A stretch of 64,000 nucleotides of DNA, taken from Conexibacter arvalis (GTDB taxonomy: Bacteria > Actinomycetota > Thermoleophilia > Solirubrobacterales > Solirubrobacteraceae). A model generated the notes under the pieces. The model had not been told where the DNA came from. It worked only from the letters and a program-made list of their open reading frames with translations, and made no database searches. Below, one piece after another: positions 41,870 through 42,086 of the stretch (positions within the stretch are counted from its first letter, which is position 1; the number at the start of each line of letters is the position of its first letter). The stretch is from contig NZ_JACHNU010000002.1 in the NCBI RefSeq assembly GCF_014199525.1, forward strand, positions 602,147 to 666,146, written 5' to 3'. Made by a program: the position numbers and the translations under genes.

Positions 41870-42086
41870 TGCGCCCGACGGGATTCGAACCCGCATCTTC
41901 CAGGCCCTAAACCTGGAGCTCTTGAGCTCATCTTTTGGCGGTGTGCGGTCCCAGGAGGGCCGCGAACGCGGCATCAGCCACCGAAACGGGGAAGATTTGG
42001 TCTCGATCCCTTCGGCTTGAGGGCTGGCGCTCCAAGGCACGCACGAACCTATTCGATTTACCGTTGACCAGTTGAGCTACGGACGC
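41870..42086 (-). tRNA. tRNA-like gene, anticodon UAG, with 142-nt insertion in the D loop
   Basis: Read on the minus strand, GCGTCCG (42086-42080) pairs fully with CGGGCGC (41877-41871), including one G-U, and A73 is at 41870. TA, GCTC and AACTGGTCAA follow the 5' stem; 142 nt later GAGC closes the D stem. The rest is canonical: anticodon stem CCAGG/CCTGG, loop TTTAGGG with anticodon UAG (41909-41907), a 5-nt variable loop AAGAT, and T arm GCGGG-TTCGAAT-CCCGT. CCA is not encoded. The anticodon reads CUA (Leu), but bacterial tRNA-Leu normally has a long variable arm. The insertion holds its own hairpins, such as GCCGCG-TT-CGCGGC. Whether it is spliced, trimmed or kept is unknown. Confidence 0.75.

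Follow-up and report, generated by a model that had tools for sequence, protein, structure and literature searches.

A tRNA gene with a folded D-loop domain occurs together with a leucyl-tRNA-synthetase paralogue in Solirubrobacterales

Results

The window analysed here, a 64,000-nucleotide stretch of the Conexibacter arvalis genome, carries on its minus strand a tRNA gene with an expanded D loop (41870..42086; 217 nt including A73, with CCA not encoded). A gene for a leucyl-tRNA-synthetase (LeuRS) paralogue of about 729 amino acids lies 196 nt downstream on the same strand (39485..41674, read from a Met at 41674 or 41671). We refer to this protein as LeuRS2, a label of this work that implies no orthology. 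About 45 nt 5' of the tRNA is a near-consensus, sigma-70-type promoter, TTGACT-18-TATACT (42132..42161, minus strand), whose TTGAC and TAT...T are conserved in all seven congeners.

The preliminary description of this locus placed a class I tRNA with all four arms at 41870-42086, and its coordinates proved exact, on the minus strand, with every arm paired. The acceptor stem (GCGUCCG/CGGGCGC), D stem (5' strand GCUC, 42074..42077; 3' strand GAGC, 41918..41921), anticodon arm (CCAGG-UUUAGGG-CCUGG, 41900..41916, with anticodon UAG at 41909-41907) and T arm (GCGGG-UUCGAAU-CCCGU, 41878..41894) form the 7/4/5/5 arms of a class I tRNA with discriminator A73. The acceptor/T branch is thus 7/5, not the 8/4 or 9/3 of allo-tRNAs, and the variable loop is 5 nt (AAGAU), without the long class II arm typical of tRNA-Leu. 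Besides A73, the bases U8, A14, A15-U48, G18G19 and the T loop UUCGAAU are all present, so an L-shaped core should form. Several of these bases are leucine-identity or L-shape elements: A73, A14 and A15-U48 are identity elements of tRNA-Leu, and the anticodon is not a leucine determinant in E. coli (PMC9976931). A tRNA-Leu ancestry is nevertheless not supported, as the tRNA body is no closer to tRNA-Leu than to other tRNAs and is nearest tRNA-His/Arg/Gly. ARAGORN called no tRNA at the window locus, and the Rfam tRNA model matched only its 3' portion (41928-41878, 32.1 bits, above the cut-off). Searches of phage and plasmid collections returned no match.

The D loop, canonically about 7-12 nt, totals 152 nt in the window tRNA. 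Most of this is a 142-nt insertion (41922..42063, minus strand) that follows G18G19 in the 20a/20b region and begins after AACTGGTCAA / AACUGGUCAA, the length and site originally proposed. It comprises helices P0, P1 and P2 and a three-way junction with P3, which has a bulged UCAA, and P4. When 40 relatives were searched at the DNA level, each of the six other genomes of the genus proved to have a full-length homologue, with 70-89% identity. In the alignment of the seven congeners, one structure pairs 98.5% of cells, with two-sided changes at 15 pairs; none of 500 shuffles did as well, and sliding the partners by 1-3 columns reduced pairing to roughly 40%.

Running a covariance model, R1, over 232 Solirubrobacterales genomes added six long members of 209-221 nt (in G082, G166, G199, G209 and G088, plus a second copy in G006). 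All 13 long members share P0, P1, P2 and the three-way junction with P3 and P4. In the 13-member alignment, which leans towards structure because it was fitted to the model, 95.3% of cells are paired, 29 of 56 pairs have two-sided changes and 0/500 shuffles match. Independent free folding of most individual insertions gave the same long stalk and branched tip. The sequence of the base helix P0 varies by member (GGAAAC/GUUUCC in the second G006 copy, for instance), and most long members have the P3 bulge motif UCAAGCCG...CGGUG, in which CGGU(G) closes P3. The tRNA core is kept throughout: the four stems are 100% paired in the 13 long members, U8, A14, G18G19 and the T loop are retained, and the anticodon stem covaries across relatives, with D loops of 137-153 nt.

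The homologues therefore carry compensatory changes throughout the insertion, as expected of the folded extra domain first suggested, and the 29 covarying pairs contradict a picture of two decaying tRNA halves. Of the two stems initially named, GCCGCG/CGCGGC is real, covaries and corresponds to P4; CGGTG/CACCG, as written, is no conserved helix. A proposed competition between two GAGC strands for GCTC did not hold up. The second GAGC, within GAGCTCAAGAGC, is peculiar to this genome, and we rejected strand competition as a conserved feature because relatives read AAGCTCAAGAGC, TTGCTCAAGAGC or CAGCTCAAGAGC at this place. The view that the insertion is not a group I or II intron stands: covariance models of both groups gave no hit up to E=5, no intron family matches, and a permissive Rfam search of the region returned only the tRNA half and sub-threshold chance matches. 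We conclude that this is a real, conserved and structured RNA whose fold is well supported, and that the insertion is most likely retained in the mature RNA.

The R1 search also matched 104-nt stretches in three genera, which form a second class of tRNA with an expanded D loop. These tRNAs measure 96 nt to A73 and have a 31-nt D loop in which a 7-bp hairpin, between GGUCAAC and AAA, occupies the same place as the long domain. ARAGORN names them tRNA-Pro or undetermined; most long expanded tRNAs it misses or calls partially. All short-class sequences that we read have the anticodon UUC and A73, and the invariant UUC suggests that the anticodon may matter in this class. Long members vary, with UAG, UUC, UUG, UAA and CCU, so a leucine anticodon is not a family-wide feature. 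As the window genome has a complete tRNA set that includes five normal class II tRNA-Leu, UAG among them, the expanded tRNA is extra to decoding. Two 104-nt, short-class matches occur in G084 (G084:C32:10258-10361 and G084:C7:25913-26016). In G078:C26 the short-class tRNA has a tyrosine-recombinase-like ORF, read by eye (L141 93-734, minus strand), some 0.8 kb away, as though this tRNA were used as an integration site.

LeuRS2 shares 36% identity with the canonical LeuRS encoded elsewhere in this genome and scores 444 bits against TIGR00396, under the curated cut-off of 548.4. Its AlphaFold model is a confident LeuRS fold (pLDDT 87.7) whose best PDB matches are LeuRS, with AgnB2 (5ah5) among the best by both fold and sequence. 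The window protein retains the class I motifs, as HMGH (HIGH) and KMSKH (KMSKS). The C-terminal domain of about 65 amino acids is missing in all copies examined, and the CP1 editing motif TTRPDT has become FTPHxDA. At the leucine-pocket positions of the T. thermophilus enzyme we found F41 replaced by C, Y43 by F, F501 by H, S504 by G, Y507 by Q and H541 by G, with the amino-group aspartate D80 conserved; we take the roles of these residues to be those familiar from LeuRS structures. Because HIGH and KMSK are kept and the C-terminal domain, editing motif and leucine pocket are lost or changed, the most parsimonious reading is that LeuRS2 would still be able to catalyse, but would have lost both its preference for leucine and its proofreading and would hold a different tRNA.

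Two tRNA-linked LeuRS2-like proteins, in G209 (L189 6319-7743) and G088 (L193 6314-8083), have neither HIGH nor KMSK and are apparent pseudo-synthetases. G209 has a separate, intact LeuRS2. In G088 the motif-less protein is the sole adjacent LeuRS2 and, lacking both motifs, is unlikely to charge the tRNA. Matches of 31-39% identity from outside the order were rejected as LeuRS2: where their motifs are readable (only partly so in L220), they look like canonical LeuRS, with intact C-terminal tails, TTRPDT and/or EHA, and no FDQR.

The two genes occur together. LeuRS2 is present in 49 of the 232 Solirubrobacterales genomes, including every congener, and an expanded-D-loop tRNA of either class in 44, every one of them LeuRS2-positive. 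None of the 183 LeuRS2-negative genomes yielded such a tRNA (Fisher p = 3e-42, with related genomes not independent), an absence less certain than the presences because, in each genome, no more than a few top candidates were scored with the covariance model. The five genomes with LeuRS2 only are all incomplete assemblies (58-78% complete). The pair also appears sporadically, both parts together, in G199, G209 and G088, each the one positive member of a genus that is negative otherwise. The tRNA adjoins LeuRS2 in all seven congeners, in the second G006 copy and in G082, G166 and G199. Gene order varies: the tRNA is 3' of LeuRS2 in G082 and G166, divergent from it in G088, and unlinked in the short class.

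In a phylogenetic tree LeuRS2 is monophyletic (100/100), and the partners of short-class tRNAs make up one LeuRS2 clade (100/100), with the label 'short' assumed for G157, G174, G076 and two rows from named metagenome-assembled genomes (MAGs), whose tRNAs were not located. G082 and G166 each have two LeuRS2 copies, one in each tRNA-class group. Samples of the class and phylum outside Solirubrobacterales yielded no further pair. Three named MAGs with LeuRS2 belong to Solirubrobacteraceae/Solirubrobacterales; the LeuRS2 ORF of one of them is also that of G162, a genome from the family to which the window belongs. The pairing and co-evolution of the tRNA and LeuRS2 are thus real and well supported. 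The preliminary description did not mention LeuRS2, the short class or the spread of the system across the family, in which most of the significance of the locus lies.

Enzymes that make amino acids recur near the pairs. The second pair of G006 is divergent from homologues of SbnA and SbnB (2,3-diaminopropionate synthesis), both above curated cut-offs. Short-class LeuRS2 adjoins a threonine-synthase (ThrC) paralogue; of 12 genomes checked, the six that have short-class LeuRS2 are the only ones with this paralogue, and each carries the normal enzyme as well. The G209 tRNA comes after genes encoding a LysW-type kinase-like protein, an aminotransferase-like PLP enzyme, an ATP-grasp ligase, DapF and a GATase; the intact LeuRS2 of that genome adjoins LysA and an HMGL-like synthase, and the G199 locus has an AurF-type oxygenase. 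Because such enzymes recur among the neighbours, they suggest a private amino acid. An acceptor enzyme shared by all loci was sought in these neighbourhoods and not found, and we rejected tight linkage to one downstream acceptor enzyme, since the neighbours depend on the lineage.

Discussion

We consider it reasonably probable that the tRNA and LeuRS2 are a dedicated synthetase-tRNA pair in which the insertion is a retained recognition or partition domain, and which charges an amino acid other than leucine, mainly for non-ribosomal metabolism. We infer the following scheme. From a normal L-shaped tRNA core, the covarying D-loop RNA domain would project at the elbow, and it is most likely still present after maturation. 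The amino acid that LeuRS2 attaches to this tRNA is most likely not leucine. For LeuRS2, for a later enzyme or for both, the D-arm domain would act as the identity tag, and it would also separate the charged tRNA from the normal ones. Because the anticodons of long members drift while their cores stay, the tRNA, once charged, probably supplies a reaction outside the ribosome, for example the synthesis of a specialised metabolite. A single charged amino acid could hardly be safe at all the codons of the long members, several of which wobble to very common ones. More tentatively, and with somewhat less than even confidence, we propose a tRNA class not described before: a separate folded domain would sit in its D loop, a re-specialised LeuRS would charge the tRNA with a non-proteinogenic amino acid, and the tRNA would act as a private aminoacyl carrier outside the ribosome.

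A role in the genetic code, with an orthogonal translation pair inserting leucine or an unusual amino acid at a handful of rare codons (CUA, for example) within special genes, is unlikely, although it has points in its favour. Nothing is missing from the tRNA core, every short-class sequence read has UUC, and orthogonal second pairs are known for PylRS/tRNA-Pyl (PMC9437257). Moreover, all anticodons seen would read codons that are uncommon in these GC-rich genes; per 1000 codons, the window genes use CUA 0.18, UUA 0.06, CAA 0.47, GAA 2.3 and AGG 2.6 times. However, because anticodons differ among close LeuRS2 relatives, one amino acid would enter at codons for Leu, Glu, Gln or Arg. With U34, the very common G-ending codons CUG and GAG would be read too, and a D loop of 31-153 nt at the elbow would likely hinder passage through the ribosome.

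Splicing or processing of the 142 nt to leave an ordinary 75-nt tRNA seems very improbable. Its removal would give a normal D loop, and UCAA lies at both edges of the insertion in this genome, but that edge repeat is not conserved in L046 or L138. The insertion is too short for a group I, group II or other intron and matches none, its fold is conserved through large sequence change, and the hairpin at the same place in the short class is what a structural appendage would predict.

Equally hard to credit, if not harder, is self-protection, in which LeuRS2 would be a LeuRS that withstands a drug, as AgnB2 from the agrocin-84 plasmid does, accompanied by a spare tRNA. AgnB2 is among its best fold and sequence matches, and duplicated aminoacyl-tRNA synthetases often confer resistance (PMC9437257), but an enzyme with that function would still have to load leucine onto the normal tRNA-Leu set. 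LeuRS2 is without the C-terminal domain and the leucine-pocket residues, and it comes with its own tRNA, whose body is not Leu-like and is nearest tRNA-His/Arg/Gly. We give little credence to the idea that the structure mimics a tRNA in order to regulate LeuRS2 from the leader of its mRNA. In the window the tRNA does precede LeuRS2, shares its strand and has a conserved promoter in front, but this order is not general: the tRNA follows LeuRS2 in G082 and G166 and is divergent from it in G088, and in the short class the two are not linked. A decayed tRNA interrupted by a stray insertion, as the missing ARAGORN call might hint, can be set aside given the strong covariation, invariant core and conserved promoter.

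The dedicated pair that we favour resembles PylRS/tRNA-Pyl (and PylRS2/tRNA-Pyl2) in joining a dedicated synthetase to an odd-shaped tRNA that travels with it and is extra to the standard set; here, however, the D arm is enlarged rather than reduced, the anticodon is unconserved, the synthetase is a relative of class Ia LeuRS, and charging is only predicted. AgnB2 (5ah5), one of the nearest solved structures, is likewise an extra bacterial LeuRS. It charges tRNA-Leu and gives self-resistance, and we know of no link between it and an unusual tRNA. The duplicated LeuRS of archaea (Sulfolobaceae LeuRS-I and Halobacteria LeuRS2) are also paralogues with no assigned role, and LeuRS-I has a disrupted editing domain and a changed C-terminal domain, but they bind ordinary tRNA-Leu (PMC9437257). 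Allo-tRNAs, which occur naturally in bacteria, also have a non-canonical shape and varied anticodons, but it is their acceptor/T branch (8/4 or 9/3) that is altered (PMC7609411), whereas here that branch is normal and the D loop expanded.

SbzA, an IleRS-like aminoacyl transferase of SB-203207 biosynthesis, is another class Ia synthetase paralogue in specialised metabolism. It moves Ile from tRNA to a metabolite, showing that synthetase-like proteins can transfer amino acids to small molecules, but it uses ordinary tRNA-Ile, with no private tRNA reported (PMC6331615). SbzA keeps its motifs, unlike the tRNA-linked LeuRS2-like proteins of G209 and G088; by analogy, such a motif-less protein might bind or transfer rather than charge. 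Our literature search, which was not exhaustive, found no description of a D-loop-expanded bacterial tRNA or of a LeuRS paralogue with its own tRNA. If our reading is correct, the D loop of a tRNA can accommodate a large structured domain, and a natural, multi-member synthetase-tRNA pair with a rebuilt amino-acid pocket would be of direct use in genetic-code engineering. It would also point to aminoacyl-tRNA-dependent chemistry yet to be explored in the Solirubrobacterales, a bacterial order that has received little study.

Further genes were noted near the pairs. In the window, the neighbours include a Zn-alcohol dehydrogenase, a DHDPS-family protein and GSDH, which indicate no product. Beside LeuRS2 is a protoglobin fused to a methyl-accepting chemotaxis signalling domain (37939-39288, plus strand), and at 45058-47595 a CobW-like GTPase is divergent from a His-rich ZnuA-like protein, both identified by eye; the two resemble a zinc-response pair. 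The G088 pair is followed by genes for lysine 5,6-aminomutase (L193 9945-13465), the alpha subunit scoring above its curated cut-off. An aspartyl/asparaginyl-tRNA-synthetase-like gene, identified by eye, lies downstream of the long tRNA of G166 (L191 3633-4943, minus strand), and LeuRS2 neighbours HypE/HypF-like genes in both G166 and G082.
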